Assembly (NCBI GenBank): GCA_030433115.1
Contig: JAUILH010000031.1
Coordinates: 1-34,649, forward strand
Direction of reading: 5' to 3'
DNA length: 34,649 nt
Source: Bacteroidia bacterium
Lineage (GTDB): Bacteria; Bacteroidota; Bacteroidia; Flavobacteriales_D; JAUILH01
The stretch's first letter is position 1, and each line of letters begins with the position of its first letter. The translations under genes and the position numbers were made by a program. Positions 7,852-19,044 of the stretch are shown piece by piece. Below the pieces are notes generated by a model. The model had not been told where the DNA came from and ran no database searches. It saw only the letters and a program-made list of their open reading frames with translations.

Positions 7852-9252
7852 CTATCCAATAGCTCGAATAATGTCGTTGGCATTGGCATAAATTACAAGA
7901 GACAATATGAGGACGAAACCTGCAATTTGAGCATATTCTAACACCTTTTGATTAGGCGGCCTTCCGGAAATAGCTTCATAGAGTAGGAACATGACGTGTC
8001 CACCGTCCAATGCCGGAATGGGTAAAATATTCATGAAAGCCAGAATAATAGAAATGAAAGCCGTAATTCTCCAAAATGCTTCCCATTCCCATTGCGGTGG
8101 GAACAGATTTCCAAATGCACCAAATCCACCAACAGATTTAGCACCTTTTTTGGTAAATACGTATTTCATTTGTCCTGCGTATGTTCTAAGACTTTTAACG
8201 CCTTCCGACCATCCAGCAGGAATGGCAGCGAAAAAACCGTAGGTAGTATTTTTCATTTTGAAGAGTGTCTCCATGTCCGTTTCGTGCCTTATTCCAATAG
8301 CTTTTGACGCATTTATGGGTACCATGAGTTCCATGGTTTCACCATCTCTCAGCACACCAATGCTTAGGTTTCTTTCATAGTTTTTGGAAAAATTCTGAAT
8401 TTCTTTATAGGAGTAGCTGGTTTCCCCTAAATGAGCTACCAAAGCTTCATGAGTCGTGTTGTAGGATTTTCTAACCTCAGTAGACATTTCATTCCAGTAC
8501 TTAACTGACTTTCCCTCAACGGATACAATAATGTCACCCTTTTTGAGTCCGGCTTTTTCGGCAGGACTATTGTCATCAACAATTGCCAATTTGGTGAGCA
8601 CTCGTGGTGAAAAACTGGCATCATGACGGAAAAATTCATAGTCAATGTCCTCTGGTAGCGTAATGGTTTCTATTTCGCCATCTTCATGCCTTACCTTAAA
8701 TTCGGATACGTTTTCAATGAGCATCATGCGGTTAATGTCCAAAGCATTGGTAAGTTCTTCGCCGTCTACCTCAAGAATCACATCTCCGTCTCTAAAACCA
8801 TATTCTTCAACAATTTCCGGCACATCATAGCCGTGCGTTAAATTTTCCGGTGGCAATTCGTCCTTGCCCCATACAGACATAATCATCACATAGATTAAAA
8901 CGGCTACAATGACATTGACAGTAACTCCACCAATCATAATGATGAGTCGCTGCCAAACAGGTTTGGATCTGAACTCCCATGGTTCCGGATCCTTTTCCAT
9001 TTGTTCGGTATCCATGCTCTCATCGATCATTCCGGATATTTTCACATAACCACCAAGTGGCAGCCAACCAATCCCGTACTCTGTTTCTCCTTTTTTAGAT
9101 TTCCAAAGAGAAAACCATGGATCGAAGAACAAGTAAAACTTTTCAACCCTTGTTTTAAAGAGCTTAGCCGGAATAAAATGCCCCAATTCATGCAATACAA
9201 TGAGGAGAGATAAACTCAAGAGTAACTGACCAGCTTTAATCCAAATTTCCAT
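7852..9252 (-). CDS. rseP: RseP-type site-2 intramembrane metalloprotease with PDZ domains
   Basis: A 466-residue membrane protein. The zinc site HELGH is at residues 21-25 in the first membrane helix, and the third ligand lies in NILPIPALDGGHVMF (D416). A second membrane helix is near 104-126, then two PDZ-like regions (about 140-200 and 220-315, with NSPAEKAGLKKGDIIVSVEG), and closing helices at about 395-410 and 440-457. RseP cleaves membrane-embedded anti-sigma factors and clears signal-peptide remnants at the inner membrane. Length and motif order are normal for the family. In many bacteria, including Bacteroidota, it is next to dxr; here dxr is on the same strand but about 7.4 kb upstream. 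A -7 box just upstream suggests its own promoter. Confidence 0.96.
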   Translation of the reverse strand: MEIWIKAGQLLLSLSLLIVLHELGHFIPAKLFKTRVEKFYLFFDPWFSLWKSKKGETEYGIGWLPLGGYVKISGMIDESMDTEQMEKDPEPWEFRSKPVWQRLIIMIGGVTVNVIVAVLIYVMIMSVWGKDELPPENLTHGYDVPEIVEEYGFRDGDVILEVDGEELTNALDINRMMLIENVSEFKVRHEDGEIETITLPEDIDYEFFRHDASFSPRVLTKLAIVDDNSPAEKAGLKKGDIIVSVEGKSVKYWNEMSTEVRKSYNTTHEALVAHLGETSYSYKEIQNFSKNYERNLSIGVLRDGETMELMVPINASKAIGIRHETDMETLFKMKNTTYGFFAAIPAGWSEGVKSLRTYAGQMKYVFTKKGAKSVGGFGAFGNLFPPQWEWEAFWRITAFISIILAFMNILPIPALDGGHVMFLLYEAISGRPPNQKVLEYAQIAGFVLILSLVIYANANDIIRAIG

Positions 9253-9337: not shown

Positions 9338-10525
9338 ATGCCCGTAAATATGTACAAAATGAAACCCATGAAACAAATTTTGACCGCAATGTGTGTTTGT
9401 TTAATTACACAAACGTCACTGGCTGATAGTCCGCTGACATCCACCAGTTTTTACAAGGCATATGAATCGGAAACGATAGTTCAAGAAGCACTCACGAATA
9501 AATTAAGCCGAAAAGTGATTCAATATTTAAACGGCGACCATCCTATTGATGTGAAAATCGCTGCCATCAATGCCATATCGTGGGGCAATAAAGAAGTAGT
9601 TAAAGCCTACGAAATGTCTTTAAAAGCTGAATATAAGTCGCTTCCTAAAGCCTATTTCGATACGCTGAAGACCTATTTTAGTCAAGCAGGTTTTTTGGAA
9701 AACGCAGGAAATACCCCATCTCAACTAAGTGATGACCAATTGATTTGTTGGGCCTACTTACAAGGCATGGGTGATTATTTTGCACCGGAAAAAGCATTGG
9801 GAGCTGCAGCAATAGCGCGTTCTCGGAATAACAAAAACCAGACTTATGGGATGATAACCGGTCTTTTGATTGCTCAGATACAATTAAATACCAATTGGTG
9901 CGGGGTTTATGAGGCCATGAATGATTTAGTTCTTGTACCCGATTACTCCGAAGGTTTGATGAAACAAGAAGCCATTGATATCGTGTTCAGGTACATCAAC
10001 TTGTACAAATCGTCCTGTGATGAAGAAGATGAACCAGTGGTAGAGGAGTCGTTTGAAGTCGGAGCAGAAGTGATTGTGGACGATCGTGACCTTATCGGCA
10101 TAAATGATGGGGAGATTTATGTGCCGGAGGGCTTGTTAAAAAAACAGATAATTGAAAAAGGCAGTAGACCAGATCTTAAAATCCAAGAAACACTGTCGGT
10201 AGAGTATGATAGTGATATTAAAGGAACTAAGGTGGGAGTGGTTGTCGTGAATAGTGGAAAAGTCGCCAGCCTTCCATGTGTTGCCTTACTTGAAAATAAT
10301 CAGTTCGATTCGATCGAAATGGGTGATAAGATAGTTTACTATAAGTCAGCTGCTACTCTCATTCCTGCTCTTGAACCAGGTGAAATGACAACGATTTATC
10401 TGAAAATTCCGGACTATTGGGTTTACGATCCCAATTGTGAAATTCGAGTGACTCTGGATGCCCTAAACCACATTCCTGAGAAGAATGAAAACAACAATGT
10501 AGAGGAATACGCGGAATATGGATAA
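9338..10525 (+). CDS. Exported protein with C-terminal CARDB-like domain
   Basis: A 395-residue protein. In-frame ATGs occur at 9338, 9350, 9359 and 9368; the last two give the most ordinary signal peptide (MKQILTAMCVCLITQTSLAD), so the true start may be there. The region 30-225 looks helical and HEAT/TPR-like (VKIAAINAISWGNKEVVKAY). An acidic linker (CDEEDEPVVEESFE) follows. The C-terminal 120 residues (RPDLKIQETLSVEY, GVVVVNSGKVASLP, ALEPGEMTTIYLKIP, IPEKNENNN) resemble a CARDB/APHP beta-sandwich, common in cell-surface proteins. No T9SS tail is seen. It diverges from rseP with 85 bases between. A terminator at 10569-10593 separates it from the kinase gene. The function is not known. Confidence 0.82.
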   Translation: MPVNMYKMKPMKQILTAMCVCLITQTSLADSPLTSTSFYKAYESETIVQEALTNKLSRKVIQYLNGDHPIDVKIAAINAISWGNKEVVKAYEMSLKAEYKSLPKAYFDTLKTYFSQAGFLENAGNTPSQLSDDQLICWAYLQGMGDYFAPEKALGAAAIARSRNNKNQTYGMITGLLIAQIQLNTNWCGVYEAMNDLVLVPDYSEGLMKQEAIDIVFRYINLYKSSCDEEDEPVVEESFEVGAEVIVDDRDLIGINDGEIYVPEGLLKKQIIEKGSRPDLKIQETLSVEYDSDIKGTKVGVVVVNSGKVASLPCVALLENNQFDSIEMGDKIVYYKSAATLIPALEPGEMTTIYLKIPDYWVYDPNCEIRVTLDALNHIPEKNENNNVEEYAEYG

Positions 10526-10568
10526 GTCCGGTTTGGTGATAAGATTTTCATGAACTAAAAGATACTTA

Positions 10569-10593
10569 GAAGCATCCCGTTAGGGGTGCTTTT
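10569..10593 (+). terminator. Intrinsic terminator after the CARDB-like gene
   Basis: AAGCATCCC (10570-10578) pairs with GGGGTGCTT (10583-10591) through one G-T wobble and a GTTA loop; a short T-run follows. It lies 43 bases after the stop at 10525 and upstream of the kinase promoter, so the kinase forms a separate unit. Confidence 0.7.
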
Positions 10594-10611
10594 GCCGTTC
10601 CTAAAGCAGAT

Positions 10612-10641
10612 TTTGTTGATTGAAACAGACTCATAACTTTG
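10612..10641 (+). promoter_or_regulatory. Promoter of the histidine kinase gene
   Basis: TTTG (10612-10615), an 18-base spacer and TAACTTTG (10634-10641) give an exact match to the Bacteroidota TTTG / TAnnTTTG pattern. The -7 box covers the alternative TTG start at 10639, which argues that translation begins at ATG 10657, with a leader of about 10 bases. Confidence 0.65.
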
Positions 10642-10656
10642 CCGGAAAAACCGTTG

Positions 10657-12549
10657 ATGCGATTTTTATTACTCTGTTTTTTCTTGATCTGCATTAGTGC
10701 TCAAGCACAATATATTCAAAGAGATTCGGCAAGTATTGATAGTCTGAAAAACGCGTATTTGTCTGAACCCCATATGGATACTTCTAAAGTGTCTAGTTTG
10801 TTGTCTTATTTGATGAGTAAGGAACAGCGCTTTTCTGGCAATGACAGCACCTTCCTAGAAGCAGGCATAGACCTGGCTATTTCACTCGATTTCAAGCAAG
10901 GCATCATAAACCTATATGATCTTAAGGCCAAATACAATCAACAGAAATCCAGATTTGAGCAAGCCACTTATTGGGCAATTCAGAGTGATAGTATGGCAAG
11001 AACTATTGGTGATAAAAGGGGCATTTTAATCGCCCAATCCACTTTAATAAATGTGGCTTTTATCCAGCGGGACTTCAAGAGTGCCTTGCATGCAGCAGAG
11101 GAAATAGTTCAATTGATCGAGAATGATCCGCTAAATGTAGACAATGCACGACACTATTTTACTCTGGGTAAATGTTTGGGTGCTTTGAGCCGACATGATG
11201 AAGCCTTGAGTGCTTATCAGACTGCTCTTAGCATTTCTGAAGAAACTGGTTTTGCTCCCGGAATAACAATTTCATATGCCAGTATAGCGGACACCTACAT
11301 ACATCTAAAGGACTACGAAAAAGCCTTGCCACTTTTGATTAAGGTGCATGAGGTCTTCAAATCCGAGGGACGATCAACAAACTTTGCAGCCAGTCACTTT
11401 ACTCTGGCACGTTGCTATCTTGGCTTGCAACAGGTCAATAAAGCAATATATCATGCACAGCTTGCCAGAGACATTAACAGAGACCTTAATAACATGTCTT
11501 ATCTAAAGGACAATTACCTCACTCTGGCAAAGGGGTATATGTTGCAAGGAGACATGGATAAATCAGAGACCTATATTGATAGTGCGTTTATGGTTTTAGA
11601 TAGTATCAATGATGAACAACGAATAGAAACCATAGAGAATCTTAAAACCAAGTACCAAACAGATCGAATTGAGCAAGAGAAAGAATTGGTTGAAACCCAG
11701 AATAGACTTATCGCCAAAGAAAAGGAAGAAGCCAGAATTGAAGCCGAAAAGAACCGTCTGATCAGCATCATTGCCATAATATCATTGTTCCTTATCTCTG
11801 GACTGCTGTGGTTTGCAATGAATCGTTGGTTGCTCAGCAGAAGGCAAAAAGAAGAGCTGGATGTGGCATATGAAAAATTGGAGGAAAGCAAGAAACTGGA
11901 GTTGGCCGCCTCAAACCTCAAAGCCATCAAATCACAGATGAATCCACACTTCATTTTCAATTCTATTAACTCTATTCAGGATACGATTCTGCAACAAGAT
12001 ACTTTACAGTCCTACGATCATTTGGTGATTTTCTCTCAACTGGTTAGAACTGTTTTGGACCATTCCGAGCGTGAGTTTATACCAATTGCAGAAGAAATAC
12101 AGTTTCTCAAAACGTATCTGGACCTGGAGAAACTAAGATTTAAAGACGATTTTTCGTTCAACCTTGAAAACCAGGTAACCTCAGGAGGTGTATTGATCCC
12201 TTCCCTTATTATTCAACCTTTCATAGAAAATGCCATTAAGCATGGTCTCATGCACAAATCTGGTCTCAAACATCTGCAGATCACCTTAACCGATTTGAAT
12301 GATACTACCATCAAATGTGCACTGGAAGATAATGGCATTGGCCTCACAAAATCTAAAGAAATTAACCAAAAACGAACCAATCATAGATCGTTTTCTACTC
12401 AAGCCATTCAACAGCGACTTGATTTATTATCTGATCAGACACAATCTAAAGCAGCATTTACAATGCGCGCAATTACAAATGAAACCGGAGATGAAATCGG
12501 GACTAGAGTAGACCTAATTCTTCCCATTAAAGCAGTTGTTAAAGTATAA
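10657..12549 (+). CDS. TPR-containing LytS-type sensor histidine kinase
   Basis: 630 residues from ATG 10657; the in-frame TTG at 10639 overlaps the promoter and is rejected. A signal peptide (MRFLLLCFFLICISAQAQ) leads into a periplasmic stretch of TPR-like helix pairs (about 80-320; e.g. RHYFTLGKCLGALSRHDEAL). A coiled coil rich in Glu/Lys precedes one membrane helix (about 368-388). The cytoplasmic part is a His_kinase/HATPase module: SQMNPHFIFNSINSIQD (phospho-His near 431), the N box QPFIENAIKHGL (about 520-531) and DNGIG (558-562). The family autophosphorylates on that His and passes phosphate to a LytTR regulator. The likely partner is at 13648, one gene downstream. The signal sensed by the TPR domain is unknown. 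Confidence 0.93.
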   Translation: MRFLLLCFFLICISAQAQYIQRDSASIDSLKNAYLSEPHMDTSKVSSLLSYLMSKEQRFSGNDSTFLEAGIDLAISLDFKQGIINLYDLKAKYNQQKSRFEQATYWAIQSDSMARTIGDKRGILIAQSTLINVAFIQRDFKSALHAAEEIVQLIENDPLNVDNARHYFTLGKCLGALSRHDEALSAYQTALSISEETGFAPGITISYASIADTYIHLKDYEKALPLLIKVHEVFKSEGRSTNFAASHFTLARCYLGLQQVNKAIYHAQLARDINRDLNNMSYLKDNYLTLAKGYMLQGDMDKSETYIDSAFMVLDSINDEQRIETIENLKTKYQTDRIEQEKELVETQNRLIAKEKEEARIEAEKNRLISIIAIISLFLISGLLWFAMNRWLLSRRQKEELDVAYEKLEESKKLELAASNLKAIKSQMNPHFIFNSINSIQDTILQQDTLQSYDHLVIFSQLVRTVLDHSEREFIPIAEEIQFLKTYLDLEKLRFKDDFSFNLENQVTSGGVLIPSLIIQPFIENAIKHGLMHKSGLKHLQITLTDLNDTTIKCALEDNGIGLTKSKEINQKRTNHRSFSTQAIQQRLDLLSDQTQSKAAFTMRAITNETGDEIGTRVDLILPIKAVVKV

Positions 12550-12621
12550 TCTGCAGTTCTTAAATTCTTTTTCCCGGACCCAAACTACTGGATTAGTTTG
12601 GTGGTCTCAAAAAAAGAAAAC

Positions 12622-13620
12622 ATGAAATCAGTAATTATTATTGCATCCATATTTGCAGGTAGCCAATTAATGGCACAAGACAATTTTTATCAAGCAGCGG
12701 AAAAGAACAAAGATGCTGTGTATCACAAATTTTCAACGGTCATCGAAAAGGGAGATGGTACCACGGGGTTAGATCATTATGAAGGAGATTTTAAGATCAA
12801 CTTAACCAAATTGGAGAGTGGCCAATATTCAGGATTTGAGTTAATTGAAGTTGAAGATGGATCGGTTGACTCTAAAGCCAATATCATGGAAGGAAAAGAC
12901 CGTCAGTTTGGCTATCCTAATACCACTATTATGATGTTCAACTCAAGATACGACGGCTTCATGATTGTGGGCAATTTACTATATGAAATCACCACGTTTG
13001 ATAAGGAGGGGACTACTTTTACTACCATCGATAATATATACATCAAGAAAGAGGACAAGCCAGCTGAAGACGGTAAGAAAAAAGGACTGAAAGCTAAAAT
13101 GCAGGCTAAAATGGGACCTTACTTCTCAGAAGAAGTAAAAGCAGTTAAAAAAACAGATGTATTCAAAATAGGCAAGGACTATCTCGCTAAAATGAAAGCT
13201 CTAAGAGATGGGTATGCCATGAGTTCAAAGGATCAGGCCGATTTAGCTTTGTTTGAAAAAATGCGTCAGGATGAAAAAGACGAAATCAATGCTTATAATG
13301 AAGCCTACAAAAGAAAACCTGAATACCACAGAATTCTTCAAAACAATGCCAATGCGCAAGTTGGAAAGGATAGAGAAAACTTCAAAAGACTACATGGGAC
13401 CGATAAAGATGTCGATAATTGTAAATACATCATTAAAAATGAGAGTTCTAAGACCTTTACTTATGCCATTTCAACCGAAGAAACAGGTACAATTCCTCCT
13501 GGTGGACAACAAGAGTTTAGTTGTTATTACATCACCTTTTTTGCGGAAGGAGAGCACAAAGGAAAGGTGATTCGTGGCGGTGGACAGGGTGCTAGAGACG
13601 CCGTTTTCATCTACAAATAA
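12622..13620 (+). CDS. Exported protein of unknown function lying between kinase and regulator
   Basis: 332 residues from ATG 12622; the longer reading from TTG 12598 adds eight residues ahead of a good signal peptide (MKSVIIIASIFAGSQLMAQ) and is unlikely. The middle is Lys- and Glu-rich and probably helical (DGKKKGLKAKMQAKMGPYFS; ALFEKMRQDEKDEINAYNEA). The last 60 residues look like a small beta domain (CKYIIKNESSKTFTYAISTE, GTIPPGGQQEFSCYYITFF, KGKVIRGGG) with paired cysteines. It has no T9SS tail. Gaps are 72 bases to the kinase and 27 bases to the regulator, all same strand, so the three genes probably form one operon. It might be a periplasmic ligand or modulator of the kinase. The family is not recognised. 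Confidence 0.8.
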   Translation: MKSVIIIASIFAGSQLMAQDNFYQAAEKNKDAVYHKFSTVIEKGDGTTGLDHYEGDFKINLTKLESGQYSGFELIEVEDGSVDSKANIMEGKDRQFGYPNTTIMMFNSRYDGFMIVGNLLYEITTFDKEGTTFTTIDNIYIKKEDKPAEDGKKKGLKAKMQAKMGPYFSEEVKAVKKTDVFKIGKDYLAKMKALRDGYAMSSKDQADLALFEKMRQDEKDEINAYNEAYKRKPEYHRILQNNANAQVGKDRENFKRLHGTDKDVDNCKYIIKNESSKTFTYAISTEETGTIPPGGQQEFSCYYITFFAEGEHKGKVIRGGGQGARDAVFIYK

Positions 13621-13647
13621 AATATAGTTTAAATTCGACACCTTAAA

Positions 13648-14412
13648 TTGGAAAATCCAGTTAGCATAAAAGCAATTTTAGTAGACGATGAGCCCAGCGC
13701 AAGAAATGTGCTGGGCAATTTGTTGAAACTCGCCCATCCAAATGTTGAGGTAGTCGCAGAAAGTTCCAGTGTGCCTGAAGCGGTGGTAAAAATCAATGCC
13801 CTTAAACCGGATGTGGTTTTTCTGGATATTGAAATGCCTAAATATGCAGGCTACGAAATCATCCGTTTCATCAAGGAGATAGATTTTCAGATTGTGTTTG
13901 TAACAGCTTACGATCAATATGCCATCAAAGCCTTTGAGTTGAGTGCAGTGGATTATTTGCTGAAACCGGTCGAAAGAGCCAGGCTATCAGCAACAGTCAA
14001 AGTCTTAGAGCAGCGCGTTGAACTTAAAAGCAATGCTCAACGTCTTGAAAAGCTTCTGGTAGAAATGGAAAGGGAGAAATCTCCAACCATTTCATTTTCG
14101 GAATCGGGTAAGAAACACTTAGTTAAAACCCGAGATATCATCGCCATTTGCGCTCAGGGAGCTTATTCTGATATACTCATTGCCGATGGAAAAAAAATAA
14201 CCATCAGTAAGAACATTGGCACTATGGAGAATGAGTTGTCCAGTGAGTCGAGCATCTTTCGGTCTCACAAATCCTGGCTGGTCAACTTAAATCATATTCA
14301 GAGCTACAAAAAGGGCCTACAAGTCATTATCATGTCTAATGGCACCGAATGCAAGCTGTCGAGATTCAAAAAGGCAGAATTTGAAGACCGTCTCAATTCA
14401 GTGGAGCAATAG
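13648..14412 (+). CDS. LytTR-family response regulator (TTG start)
   Basis: A 254-residue regulator. The receiver domain (about 7-120) has the acidic pair D13-D14 in LVDDEP, phospho-acceptor D60 in VVFLDIEMP, T86 in FVTAYD and K106 in YLLKP. A linker helix (about 118-143) leads to a LytTR DNA-binding domain (about 147-252: DIIAICAQGAYSDILIADGK, FRSHKSWLVNLNHI). There is no ATG between the upstream stop and the receiver motif, so the TTG at 13648-13650 is almost certainly the true start. It is the natural partner of the LytS-type kinase at 10657, from which it is separated by one secreted-protein gene. LytTR regulators bind paired direct repeats; the T9SS gene 155 bases downstream is a candidate target. 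Confidence 0.94.
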   Translation: MENPVSIKAILVDDEPSARNVLGNLLKLAHPNVEVVAESSSVPEAVVKINALKPDVVFLDIEMPKYAGYEIIRFIKEIDFQIVFVTAYDQYAIKAFELSAVDYLLKPVERARLSATVKVLEQRVELKSNAQRLEKLLVEMEREKSPTISFSESGKKHLVKTRDIIAICAQGAYSDILIADGKKITISKNIGTMENELSSESSIFRSHKSWLVNLNHIQSYKKGLQVIIMSNGTECKLSRFKKAEFEDRLNSVEQ

Positions 14413-14567
14413 CAAAAATCAGACGCTGTCGCTAATAGATCTCTTGATTTCATTTCTGTCCATTCAGAAGTGGTTTATGTCTGCACTTCATTAAGTTTTC
14501 AAAACACTTCTTAAAGTCTTTTAGATTATGCTTGATGCATGATTCACCTTTGGGTAAAAATTAAATT

Positions 14568-16409
14568 ATGAGAAAGATTTTACCCTTGGTGCTTGGGATG
14601 TCAACAATCATGGCAAATGCACAATACGACATAAAATGGAACCAAACCTATGGCAATCCATCTGAAGATGAATATGGAGAACAAGTTACCACAGATTCAA
14701 GCGGAAACTTGTACAGTTCTGTGAGCTTTTATGCCGCACATGATATTGATCCGAATCCCGGCAATACAGTAAATGTGAATGCTGCCCCAGCCTTTACAAC
14801 ACACACTTACATTAAAAAAATGGATTCGAATGGTGATTATTTAGATCATGTGGTTTTAACCAGTGATTCGCAAGTTGAGATTAGAGACATGGAAACAGAT
14901 GCCTCCGGTAACTTGTATGTAACTGGTTCTTTTCGATCAGATGCTGTGTTTGATCCTGTCAACCCAATTGGTATGCTTTCGGCAGTTGGTAGTAACGATA
15001 TTTTTGTGGCTAAATATGATGGCAACTTAGATTTAGATTGGATCAGACATTTTGGAAATGCAAACAATGATGAAGGACGCCAGATTGAACTCTCGAATAA
15101 TACGATTTATGTTGGCGGAAGGTATACCAATGAAATTGATTTTGACTCAAGTTCATCTGCTGGGTATCATACAACCGGTAGTACCAGTTTCAACGCTACT
15201 TTCGTTGTGAGCCTTGATTATAATGGAAACTTCCAAAACTCTATGGATTTCTTTAGAATCACGCTAAATGATTTGGAATCTGATACAGCGGGTAACTTCA
15301 TTTTTACTGGCAGTGGTTTCGCAACAGTAGATTTAGATGCAGGAACGGGAACCGTGAATTATACTCCAAATAATATGAGTTTTGGTGTCATATGTAAGTA
15401 TAATTTTGGCTTTGGGTATGAAGATCACTTTATATTTGACGGTGGTCTGTCGACCCAAAACAGCATGATTGATGCGGCACTCAACGAAAATGGAGAAGTG
15501 TATGCCGTTGGTTCTACAGATGGCTCGCAAAACCTTGATCCGGGAGACCCTTCTTCTAGTGTGAGCTCTAACGCGAAATTTGTTTTTAAACTGGACAATC
15601 AAATGGATTACGATTGGAGTATAGATAACTATGGGAATCCCTTTGTTCTGGACAACCAAGACAATATGTATATCTATGGCTCCTTTGGCGGGAACTATGA
15701 TTTTGATCCATCGCCAACTACAGATTCAACTGTCAACGCAGTGCTTTTCGATGGATACCTAGTCAAATTAAATTCGGTAGGCACATTTGAATGGGTAAAA
15801 ACATTTGCGTCTAACTCTGTTTTTGTAGAGCCTGGTAATGCTGTCATTACAGAAAACAATCAGGTATTTATGATTGGCGATACCGATGGTTCTGTGGTAG
15901 GCCTTCAAGGCGGAGGCGGAGCCACTCAAGTAGTTGAACTGTTGTTCGGACCGGCATGTGCTTTGAATGACGGTGTGTTACAAAACGGCATCATGCTAAG
16001 CGCTGATCAGTCAAACGTGACATATCAATGGATCGATTGCAATACCAATCAACCCATTCCAGGCGAAACCAACCAGAGTTTCACACCGTCAACTAATGGC
16101 AATTATGCTGTGGTTTTGACCGATGGGACTTGCTCGGATACCAGTGTTTGTGTAAACGTCACAACAGTGAGCATCAATGAGGTTTTTAATTTCAACGCTA
16201 CCTTGTATCCCAATCCGGCAACAGATGTAGTGAGAATCACATCCAATGAGCTCATTGAAACCGTGCGCATCTTAGACATGAATGGTCGATTGGTTTTGAG
16301 CACACATGACTCTCTGGAAATTCCACTTCACAACATAAGTAAAGGAATGTACACCGTTGAAATTGTATCAGGAAATAAGCTTGCACGCACTAAACTGCTT
16401 ATTCAATAA
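14568..16409 (+). CDS. T9SS-secreted beta-propeller-like (SBBP-type repeat) protein
   Basis: A 613-residue protein with signal peptide MRKILPLVLGMSTIMANAQ. Repeats of the form D-x-x-G-N-x-Y-x-x-G-S-F, each followed by an Asp-rich segment and F-V-x-K-hydrophobic-D (TDASGNLYVTGSF, IFVAKYDGN, NENGEVYAVGST, FVFKLDNQ), resemble SBBP repeats and suggest a beta-propeller over about 20-440. A short Ig-like module follows (VTYQWIDCNTNQPIPGETNQ, NGNYAVVLTDGTC). The C-terminus is a T9SS type A sorting domain (LYPNPATDVVRITSNE, DMNGRLVLST, SKGMYTVEIVSGNK, KLLIQ). It is therefore exported to the surface. It follows the LytTR regulator and has a strong terminator just after it. Ligand or enzymatic activity is not evident. 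Confidence 0.9.
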   Translation: MRKILPLVLGMSTIMANAQYDIKWNQTYGNPSEDEYGEQVTTDSSGNLYSSVSFYAAHDIDPNPGNTVNVNAAPAFTTHTYIKKMDSNGDYLDHVVLTSDSQVEIRDMETDASGNLYVTGSFRSDAVFDPVNPIGMLSAVGSNDIFVAKYDGNLDLDWIRHFGNANNDEGRQIELSNNTIYVGGRYTNEIDFDSSSSAGYHTTGSTSFNATFVVSLDYNGNFQNSMDFFRITLNDLESDTAGNFIFTGSGFATVDLDAGTGTVNYTPNNMSFGVICKYNFGFGYEDHFIFDGGLSTQNSMIDAALNENGEVYAVGSTDGSQNLDPGDPSSSVSSNAKFVFKLDNQMDYDWSIDNYGNPFVLDNQDNMYIYGSFGGNYDFDPSPTTDSTVNAVLFDGYLVKLNSVGTFEWVKTFASNSVFVEPGNAVITENNQVFMIGDTDGSVVGLQGGGGATQVVELLFGPACALNDGVLQNGIMLSADQSNVTYQWIDCNTNQPIPGETNQSFTPSTNGNYAVVLTDGTCSDTSVCVNVTTVSINEVFNFNATLYPNPATDVVRITSNELIETVRILDMNGRLVLSTHDSLEIPLHNISKGMYTVEIVSGNKLARTKLLIQ

Positions 16410-16434
16410 TCACACTTAGCCATATCATATCACA

Positions 16435-16466
16435 AAGAAGCACCTCAAAAAGAGGTGCTTCTTTTA
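16435..16466 (+). terminator. Strong intrinsic terminator after the beta-propeller gene
   Basis: AAGAAGCACCTC (16435-16446) and GAGGTGCTTCTT (16452-16463) form a perfect 12-bp stem with a five-A loop, followed by TT. It lies 25 bases after the stop codon. Confidence 0.88.
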
Positions 16467-16500
16467 TGTAATGCTGCCTCTGCGAACTTCCCTTAATCCT

Positions 16501-16624
16501 CAACCAGACTCCTTCGTCGTTCCTTTTCTGAGAACGGTTGCTGGATTTTACTCATTCATTTGACCCCCAATGGCACTATACCTATACTATTAACCGTTAC
16601 TCAGACGAAGGAAAGAGTCAGTTG
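16501..16624. repeat. Imperfect inverted-repeat element between the beta-propeller gene and dxr
   Basis: The left arm (16501-16539) reads CAACCAGACT, then CCTTCGTC, TTCCTTTT, CTGAG and ACGGTT. The reverse complement of 16592-16624 reads CAACTGACTC, TTTCCTTCGTC, TGAG and AACGGTT. The arms match with short gaps and flank about 52 unpaired bases. No ORF is inside. The shape suits a degenerate miniature element or a large extragenic palindrome; a purely structural mRNA role is not excluded. Confidence 0.5.
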
Positions 16625-16667
16625 CTCGATACCCTGAACCTTTCTGCTAAAACGAACTGACCTTAGT

Positions 16668-17819
16668 TTAAATCAACGAGTCAACATAGCTTCTCACAGA
16701 ATCATCCAAAGCAATCAACTCCTGAATGCTGGAAGCCGAGCTACCGGAAAAATGGATCATCGCTTTTTCATTGTAATTGGCAATATCTAAAAACTGAATT
16801 TTCTCTTCCAAAAACGCCTGGACAGTTACTTCATTGGCGGCATTTAGCACGCACGGCATGCCATTGGAAGCCCCCATGGCATCAAAAGCCAATTGCAAAT
16901 TTTTGAAAGTGTCTTTATCTGGCTGCTCAAAGGTCAGGTTTGGAAAATCGGCAAAATTGAATCGTGGAAAGTCAGACTTAAACCTATCCGGATAACTTAA
17001 TGCAAACTGAATGGGTAGCTTCATGTCTGGCAATCCCATTTGAGATTTGATGCTCCCGTCTTCAAATTGAACCAAAGAGTGCAAAATCGATTGTGGGTGT
17101 ACAATAACATCTATTTGCTCTGGTTTCAAGCCAAATAACCATTTCGCTTCAATAACTTCTAGTCCCTTATTCATCAAGCTGGCAGAATCTATGGTGATCT
17201 TGGCACCCATGTCCCAATTGGGGTGATTCAATGCTTGAGCTTTAGTAACTGACTTTAAGTCTTCAGTGGTCTTTCCCCTAAACGGACCGCCAGAAGCAGT
17301 GAGGTAAATTTTCTCAATTTTATTATGGAACTCGCCAACAATGCATTGGAAAATGGCGGAATGTTCAGAATCTACAGGATAAATATTTACGCCTTTTTCT
17401 TGAGCACGTTGAGTCACCAACTCGCCGGCCACAACCAAAGTTTCTTTATTGGCAAGGGCAATGTTTTTTCCGGCTTCAATGGCACTCATAGTAGGTTCCA
17501 AGCCGGCAAAGCCTACCAATGCGGTTAGTACGATCTCAATCTCATCCATCTGAACGACCTGAGAAAGCGCTTCTTTTCCTGCAAACACTTTAATATCGTC
17601 TTCCCAAAGGGCATTTTTTACCTCCTCAAATCGATTCTCATCCGCAATTACCACCGTATTCGGTAAGTATTTTTTTGCTTGCTCTATCAACAAAGCGGCA
17701 TTTGAATTGGCTGTAAGCACCACCAATTCAAATTTGTCTGAGTGTGCTTCAAATACTTCCAGCGCTTGCGTTCCAATAGAACCTGTGGACCCTAAAATGG
17801 CCAAACCTCTTTTCTCCAT
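16668..17819 (-). CDS. dxr: 1-deoxy-D-xylulose-5-phosphate reductoisomerase (MEP pathway)
   Basis: A 383-residue cytoplasmic enzyme of normal length. NADPH-binding GSTGSIG is at 10-16. Family signatures in order are ANKETLVVAGE, PVDSEHSAIFQC, TASGGPFRGKT, NHPNWDMGAKITIDSASL, NKGLEVIEAKWLF and VIVHPQSILHSLVQFEDGSI. The SEHSAIFQ and NKGLE segments hold the metal- and substrate-binding acidic residues. It converts DXP to MEP in isoprenoid synthesis. It is on the same strand as rseP, the usual neighbour, but about 7.4 kb of plus-strand genes separate them. Its ATG is 154 bases from the divergent T9SS gene. Confidence 0.98.
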   Translation of the reverse strand: MEKRGLAILGSTGSIGTQALEVFEAHSDKFELVVLTANSNAALLIEQAKKYLPNTVVIADENRFEEVKNALWEDDIKVFAGKEALSQVVQMDEIEIVLTALVGFAGLEPTMSAIEAGKNIALANKETLVVAGELVTQRAQEKGVNIYPVDSEHSAIFQCIVGEFHNKIEKIYLTASGGPFRGKTTEDLKSVTKAQALNHPNWDMGAKITIDSASLMNKGLEVIEAKWLFGLKPEQIDVIVHPQSILHSLVQFEDGSIKSQMGLPDMKLPIQFALSYPDRFKSDFPRFNFADFPNLTFEQPDKDTFKNLQLAFDAMGASNGMPCVLNAANEVTVQAFLEEKIQFLDIANYNEKAMIHFSGSSASSIQELIALDDSVRSYVDSLI

Positions 17820-17973: not shown

Positions 17974-19044
17974 ATGAAAAAAAATATACTTAAAATAAGT
18001 GCCATTCTCGGTTTGTGTTTGGTGGCTTTTGTTGGCATTGCTCAGACACAAAAAACGGGGGATGATGACGACAAAAAGAAGAAGAAAACCAAAATTGAAA
18101 AGCGTGTTGAAGTAGAGCAGGAAAATGGCGAAACTACCGTAACCATCACCACCATTAAAGATGGCAAAAAAACCGTTGAAAAATTGACTGGTGATGATGC
18201 GCAGGTTTTTCTTGATGAACATGCACATGAAGGTGGTGAAGGAGAAGATATCGAAATCAGAATTGACATGAGTGGTTCTCATTCGGCAATGTCTCAAGAA
18301 GGAACTACAAGCAAGCGTGTTGAGGTGAACGACATCAATGGAGAAAAAGTAGTGAAAGTTGTGACAATAAAGGATGGAGAGGAAACGGTTGAAGAGTATC
18401 GTGGAGCAGAAGCAGATGAATATCTGGAGAATCAGCACGAAAAGATGGGACATACTGGCATGCACCAATTCAAATTCGACTTCAGTGATATGGAAGGAAT
18501 GGATATGGACACTATGAATGAAAAACTCAAGGAAATGATGTCTCAAATGGAAGGCAATGCTTTTTCATTCGATTTTGATACTGAAGGCGGAGAGGGTAAA
18601 GGAGATATGGATGTCAAGATTTTTATGGATGGAGATGATATTCCGGAGGACATGAAGAAAATGTTGGAAGAGATGGACATCAATCTCGATCAGTTAATGG
18701 AAGAAGCGAAAGGCTCTGGTAAAACAAAGGTGATGGTAACCACTATGGTAATGGTTGAAGATGTGGAGAATGAAGAAGGTGAAGCCGATCTGGAGCTGGA
18801 TGCCTTCGAGTTATTCCCCAATCCTAGTGAGGGACAATTAAGAATTAAGTTCGACACTGGAAACGAAAAAGAGGCCACAGTTACTGTTAGAGATCTCAAT
18901 GGTAAAGAAGTGTACAAAAACCGTGTTGAAGGTGCCACTAACTATGAATTAACAGTTGATTTAGGTGAGGAAGCCTCCGGAACTTATATCGTTACCGTTG
19001 ATCAAGATAAGAAACGCAAAAGCAAAAAGCTTATTCTCAAATAG
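17974..19044 (+). CDS. Acidic, Met-rich T9SS-sorted protein with an internal tandem repeat
   Basis: 356 residues. Signal peptide MKKNILKISAILGLCLVAFV is followed by a DDDDKKKKK stretch. Two copies of a roughly 43-residue unit occur at 43-86 and 114-156; both have KRVEV, then NGE, TIKDG, TVE and a final acidic helix ending near DEHAHE or ENQHEK. The middle (about 160-245) is rich in Asp, Glu, Met and Gly (FSDMEGMDMDTMNEKLKEMM). The end (277-356) is a type A sorting domain: ELFPNPSEGQLRIKFDTG, VRDLNGKEVYKN, SGTYIVTVDQDKK and KKLILK. It is therefore a T9SS cargo protein. The acidic Met/His content might bind cations, which is a guess. I do not recognise the repeat family. Confidence 0.88.
   Translation: MKKNILKISAILGLCLVAFVGIAQTQKTGDDDDKKKKKTKIEKRVEVEQENGETTVTITTIKDGKKTVEKLTGDDAQVFLDEHAHEGGEGEDIEIRIDMSGSHSAMSQEGTTSKRVEVNDINGEKVVKVVTIKDGEETVEEYRGAEADEYLENQHEKMGHTGMHQFKFDFSDMEGMDMDTMNEKLKEMMSQMEGNAFSFDFDTEGGEGKGDMDVKIFMDGDDIPEDMKKMLEEMDINLDQLMEEAKGSGKTKVMVTTMVMVEDVENEEGEADLELDAFELFPNPSEGQLRIKFDTGNEKEATVTVRDLNGKEVYKNRVEGATNYELTVDLGEEASGTYIVTVDQDKKRKSKKLILK

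Follow-up and report, generated by a model that had tools for sequence, protein, structure and literature searches.

A LytTR two-component locus of a Bacteroidia bacterium linked to a rare exported protein and to type IX secretion cargo, with a candidate operator

In this study we analysed a locus in which a LytS-type histidine kinase, an exported protein that we call X, a LytTR response regulator and a cargo protein of the type IX secretion system (T9SS) are encoded on one strand. The linkage of these four gene types is not a matter of chance: our computations find it in other genomes, always with regulators of the same clade, through a change of the kinase sensor, and together with an operator-like sequence upstream of the T9SS gene. 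With a probability of roughly 0.55, we read the locus as a self-contained sense-and-display cassette, whose co-regulated outputs would be X and the T9SS protein, with X acting on the cargo side.

Results

The window, that is, the whole stretch of 34,649 nucleotides analysed here, carries on its plus strand the genes of the histidine kinase (10657-12549), of X (12622-13620, 332 amino acids), of the LytTR regulator (13648-14412, a member of the clade that we designate S) and of the T9SS type A cargo protein (14568-16409). The intergenic gaps are 72 bp (12550-12621), 27 bp (13621-13647) and 155 bp ahead of the T9SS gene, so that X lies between the kinase and regulator genes; all four genes, their order and the two short gaps are as described in the initial annotation. 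The cassette sits between dxr and an M50 protease gene, on the opposite strand to both, and these two genes directly adjoin in at least four relatives.

The kinase consists of a signal peptide, a periplasmic sensor made of TPRs (found by Pfam), one transmembrane helix (around residues 368-391), a His_kinase domain (PF06580, E 9e-22, residues 420-499) with the H-box motif SQMNPHFIFN, and an HATPase domain, for which the HATPase_c match is weak. In the regulator, Response_reg (PF00072, E 8e-23) is followed by LytTR (PF04397, E 1e-14); its receiver motifs DDE and FLD are invariant in set A5, and TTG is the only start found for its gene. The T9SS protein begins with a signal-like stretch, MRKILPLVLGMSTIMANAQ, contains SBBP-like beta-propeller repeats and ends with a Por_Secre_tail (PF18962, 50.8 bits, residues 546-612 of 613).

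Upstream of the kinase gene lies a strong Bacteroidota promoter, TTTG-N18-TAACTTTG (10612-10641; TTTG at 10612-10615, TAACTTTG at 10634-10641), judged by the consensus of PMC6847099. It is the sole perfect match on the plus strand of 9500-17500, but shuffles are expected to give 0.33 such matches, and a single one is no rarity. On its upstream side the cassette is isolated by a terminator hairpin (10567-10594, plus strand, z -4.2 for the folded stretch) that closes the CARDB gene, and it ends in an intrinsic terminator (16434-16464, plus strand, -20.7 kcal/mol, z -6.5). The single strong promoter and the terminator proposed previously were therefore both found, but further candidate promoters, of the regulated kind, lie upstream of X and of the T9SS gene, and one promoter does not here equate to a single transcript only. 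From the -7 positions of PMC6847099, the predicted leaders are 11 nt for the kinase gene, about 17 nt for X and about 11 nt for the T9SS gene.

As claimed earlier, X is an exported protein of no known family: it has a signal-peptide-like N-terminus, ending MAQ/D and devoid of a lipobox cysteine, no membrane segment past this peptide, and neither a Pfam family over cut-off, nor an NCBIfam match, nor a sequence relative in the PDB. An AlphaFold2 model built from 15 sequences (mean pLDDT 77.5) divides it into a beta domain at the N-terminus (33-142), a helical middle part (156-265) and, at the C-terminus, a second, small beta domain, XC (268-330), the window copy of which lacks the second conserved cysteine. 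XC modelled alone, from a stand-alone copy of the same genome, reached a pLDDT of 88. Foldseek pointed weakly to pVHL-beta or thaumatin-like folds (best E 0.013 with the complete X and 0.08 with isolated XC, TM 0.15-0.6), too weakly to name the XC fold, and neither name had a sequence-family match. Por_Secre_tail, the type A sorting domain, gave no match in X or in any other member of set A2, and X thus does not qualify as T9SS type A cargo itself.

Searches with the single sequence and then with a profile recovered 15 X family members, spread over 13 of the 399 same-order genomes searched, the window's own genome, where X is single-copy, included. They are only about 16-27% identical to the window copy; a scan of genome contigs with X gave no match, the protein being too divergent, and weak matches in two genomes (G170 and G389) were rejected as unrelated proteins. 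Ten of the 15 members lie in loci with a kinase, a LytTR regulator and T9SS cargo, spread over eight genomes, two lie after T9SS cargo at contig ends (G300 and G231 C3), and three are alone (G344, G233 and G027). T9SS cargo adjoins X on the same strand in 12 of 15 cases, and wherever the contig of such a pair could be followed, kinase and regulator were present (10/10). The gene order varies. The arrangement kinase-X-regulator-T9SS belongs to the window only, and nowhere else does X stand between kinase and regulator. We found kinase-regulator-T9SS-X in G277 C61, G231 C51 and G193 (here with several T9SS ORFs intervening), kinase-regulator-X-T9SS in G059, G002 and G065, regulator-kinase-X-T9SS in G277 C59, and regulator-kinase-T9SS-X in G080 and also in G231, where the locus spans two contigs with identical ends of 141 bases.

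This census of X neighbourhoods, which the initial annotation had called for, reveals a linkage beyond chance. LytTR genes number 6 to 23 per genome, and by rough inference a LytTR gene would fall within three genes of X by chance in a few per cent of cases. X is rare, rather than widespread without the kinase pair. It was found at none of 40 control LytTR loci, and none of the 15 members lies at a kinase/regulator locus devoid of T9SS cargo. The cargo found beside X ranges widely, from LamG and BspA-like leucine-rich proteins to SBBP propeller and beta-helix proteins. T9SS neighbours occur at 13 of 19 clade loci versus 14 of 40 control LytTR loci (Fisher p 0.025), and at 16 of 40 loci of an independent clade set, so that T9SS adjacency is not specific enough to be a clade hallmark. 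Since such neighbours are common at LytTR loci and each genome has many T9SS tails (94 to at least 150), adjacency to T9SS cargo is by itself weak evidence.

Among 63 LytTR regulators taken from these genomes, all ten that are linked to X fall in one 18-member clade (support 100/99), inside which the presence of X is scattered, as expected if it was gained or lost. The sensors of the nine other X-linked kinases are of the propeller/Y_Y_Y kind (seven by Pfam, all nine by profile), and among the X loci the TPR sensor is found in the window only. The window kinase core nevertheless falls together with the clade's Y_Y_Y kinases (support 94/93), despite its TPR sensor. These groupings indicate that the sensor of this kinase was exchanged while X persisted, which argues against X as a dedicated ligand of the TPR sensor.

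XC itself behaves as a mobile module, recurring as the C-terminal domain of other secreted proteins, mostly at LytTR loci. In the window's own genome it is the last domain of two long proteins (974 and 989 amino acids) and, together with a signal peptide, makes up a protein of 104 amino acids; all three adjoin LytTR regulators. A search of 299 genomes gave 18 XC matches, 13 at LytTR loci (one of them assigned through a contig junction), four elsewhere and one cut by a contig end, that is, 13 of the 17 determinable. A further stand-alone XC was seen at a LytTR locus of a Tenacibaculum MAG (L218). Because some proteins of 100-105 amino acids consist solely of a signal peptide and XC, XC is unlikely to be a sorting signal. 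For the N-terminal domain of X, no sharing with other module proteins was found: profile iteration stayed within the X family.

The upstream regions of clade loci contain a candidate LytTR operator, a paired 9-bp repeat TTCRYAAAR with a period of 20-21 bp, located 27-29 bp before a TAnnTTTG -7 box. The half-site matrix was built from upstream regions of clade loci, then fixed before being applied to 40 further clade loci. In these independent loci, at none of which full-length X was found, a period of 21 was the commonest of 24. At three successive thresholds it was found in 17, 9 and 6 sequences, where the other periods gave about 4.4, 1.3 and 0.5 (9 against 1.3 being the counts at a score of 11). 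The -7 box stood at 27-29 bp in 19 cases (12 under the stricter setting) against 3.55 (0.86) expected, and at control LytTR loci in 2 (0) against 1.47 (0.43). Nothing notable was seen for the -7 box after repeats at wrong periods.

When the window was scored with a matrix built without it, the composite upstream of the T9SS gene (14487-14552) came out best on both strands, and it is equalled in only 2 of 2000 shuffles and 1 of 210 control upstream regions. Its repeats, TTCATTAAG-N12-TTCTTAAAG, lie at 14487-14516 on the plus strand, and a -7-like box, CACCTTTG, follows 28 bp past them (14545-14552). The paired LytTR repeats that the initial annotation proposed to look for upstream of 14568 thus have a good candidate. 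The candidate operator of X, TTGTTAAAG-N12-TTCTTAAAT (12536-12565, plus strand, score 13.3), overlaps the kinase stop and is followed 27 bp further by a -7-like box, TTAGTTTG (12593-12600). Its composite (12536-12600) is the third-best distinct plus-strand site, with a score reached by 6 of 210 control upstream regions; it is weak, and alone it is not convincing. Two of the three best distinct plus-strand composites precede the T9SS gene and X. At the kinase promoter there is no more than a weak half-site (55/2000 shuffles).

Elsewhere in the same genome, strong composites precede a T9SS gene (24.1) and a 944-amino-acid secreted protein (19.7) at locus C245, and an XC protein (19.7) at locus C90. 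A strict genome-wide scan for the repeats gave no excess over the reversed control (9 versus 7 in 12 genomes), and the published LytTR consensus, [TA][AC][CA]GTTN[AG][TG], gave no paired matches. LytTR sites described so far pair 9-bp repeats across a spacer of 12 bp, or rarely 11 bp, and lie immediately upstream of the promoter; the Bacteroides examples precede a TATCTTTG box, and the HdrR site reads ACCTCTTAG-12-ACCACTTAA (PMC6193735). Our candidate, ACTTCATTA-12-ACTTCTTAA, aligns with the latter in the same register.

Discussion

We propose that the TPR kinase would sense a periplasmic or envelope signal and phosphorylate the LytTR regulator, which would then bind the paired 9-bp repeats upstream of the T9SS propeller gene, and probably also those of X. 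The bound regulator could recruit RNA polymerase to a poor -7 box located 27-28 bp downstream. The T9SS protein would be displayed on the cell surface or released from there, whereas X, exported by the Sec route, would act with the cargo and not on the kinase; it could, for instance, be a periplasmic or outer-membrane partner, escort or anchor, of which XC may be the binding module. The idea that the T9SS protein is the output of the circuit is probable, given the linkage in ten loci and the paired repeat upstream of 14568. A contact between X and cargo is suggested by gene adjacency, and the diversity of the cargo implies that X would act through some general feature of it, or else be an independent effector.

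The role first attributed to X, whether as ligand, chaperone or brake for the TPR sensor, has lost ground: the other sensors are of the propeller/Y_Y_Y kind, the genes are not always in the same order, a candidate operator precedes X itself, and XC is also found in other secreted proteins encoded next to T9SS cargo. A related possibility starts from CpxP, a periplasmic modulator that binds and inhibits its sensor kinase. X, induced by the regulator, would bind the periplasmic part of the kinase or its ligand, and thereby damp or tune the signal. Its export, its position between the kinase and regulator genes of the window, its candidate operator and the kinase and regulator at all ten checkable X loci with T9SS cargo agree with such feedback. 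However, the kind of sensor differs between the window and the nine other loci, X never accompanies kinase and regulator without T9SS cargo, and XC is found on other cargo-side proteins. Moreover, the absence of full-length X from the 40 independent clade loci means that their kinases manage without it. We consider this feedback role unlikely.

We also think it improbable that X is a secreted effector or a structural surface component that merely shares a regulon with the T9SS protein and never contacts it. The very diverse cargo suggests no fixed binding partner and three X genes stand alone, as such a role would allow, but T9SS cargo accompanies X on the same strand in 12 of 15 cases, which runs against it. 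Finally, the insertion of the cassette between dxr and the M50 protease gene, the few genomes that carry X, and its location inside the kinase-regulator pair in the window only could evoke a chance assembly of functionally unrelated genes. The recurrence of the four gene types in ten loci of eight genomes, in varied orders and with a single regulator clade, and the operator geometry common to clade loci make this very improbable.

Beyond the cassette itself, and with somewhat less than even odds, these loci may represent a modular sense-and-display class in Bacteroidota, in which one LytTR clade and a shared operator code would serve interchangeable sensors (TPR or propeller) and T9SS cargo, joined by X or XC exported proteins that pair with the cargo.

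The individual parts, LytS/LytTR and T9SS cargo, are ordinary. The cassette shares with other LytS/LytTR systems (PF06580 and PF04397) the kinase and regulator domains with their phospho-sites, and, in its candidate sites, the paired 9-bp direct repeats, 11-12 bp apart, ahead of target genes (PMC6193735). It differs from them by the dedicated exported X and the T9SS cargo as linked genes, by the letters of its repeat (TTCRYAAAR) and by the placement of the latter 27-29 bp before the Bacteroidota -7 box. It resembles three described systems in part, and lacks the defining features of each. In FimS/FimR of Porphyromonas gingivalis, a kinase with a periplasmic TPR sensor controls surface-structure genes (PMC11053733). 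The window kinase also has a TPR sensor, but this is an exception in its clade, its linked targets are T9SS cargo and X rather than fimbriae, and it matches the FimS model (NCBIfam NF053520) over the TPR part only, with 54.6 bits against an equivalog cut-off of 600. PorX/PorY-SigP likewise ties a two-component system to type IX secretion; however, PorX has no DNA-binding domain and acts via SigP to control the T9SS machinery (PMC5445135), whereas the LytTR regulator of the cassette is linked to individual cargo genes. The LytTR Regulatory Systems (HdrRM, BrsRM) share paired repeats and an accessory protein encoded with the regulator. Their accessory protein is an inhibitory membrane protein and they have no kinase, while the cassette has a histidine kinase and an exported X without membrane segment after its signal peptide, and it cannot be classed among them.

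In the literature searched, largely outside subscription journals, we found no description of this combination, of the X and XC families or of the operator, nor any paper in which LytTR regulators control T9SS cargo. Each of these genomes holds about a hundred or more T9SS cargo genes. The PorXY-SigP route, which has been characterised, governs the secretion machinery, and a regulator clade with a cargo gene of its own would offer a direct handle on cargo-specific control, on which cargo is made and when. The candidate operator, a paired TTCRYAAAR about 28 bp before a -7 box, makes this control testable, and X and XC, which had neither Pfam nor NCBIfam annotation, gain a context in one signalling clade.

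Genomic setting of the cassette

In at least four relatives (loci L297, L298, L301 and L302), a gap of about 10 bp is all that separates dxr from the gene for the M50/RseP-like protease. In the window, the two genes (7852-9252 and 16668-17819, both on the minus strand) are separated by 7.4 kb, occupied by a CARDB protein gene (9338-10525) and, on the opposite strand, by the cassette. The cassette looks inserted, and the conserved pair appears to be its insertion site. Close to the cassette lies a second T9SS cargo gene (17974-19044), whose highly acidic product contains the repeat 'V.TIKDGKKTVE' twice. The region upstream of this gene yielded no good operator.

Inside the cassette, the start of the regulator gene contains a strong GC-rich hairpin (13692-13716; -19.7 kcal/mol, z -5.3), followed by a T-rich stretch. 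Lying between X and the regulator, this hairpin may serve a regulatory or attenuating function.

Related loci and their exported proteins

The 4.4-Mb draft genome to which the window belongs encodes at least 23 LytTR regulators. Its T9SS tail domains number at least 150, and several paralogous kinase/regulator/secreted-protein loci are present (C63, C78, C90, C245 and C96).

A second small protein that is exported and recurrent adjoins LytTR/XC loci in two genomes (L077:12727-13137, L210:3896-4300 and L075:9559-9975); it is 134-138 aa long and shows the pattern AEKAKxxLKK.

Immediately 3' of other clade regulators, we observed secreted proteins with variable N-terminal domains and C-terminal glycine-rich (GGNGG) repeats (L184:2682-3992, L185:5661-6971, L188:8500-9900, L168:6249-7571, L173:8597-9976 and L186:8713-10041). 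These GGNGG-repeat proteins are a further class of exported protein linked to the clade regulators.
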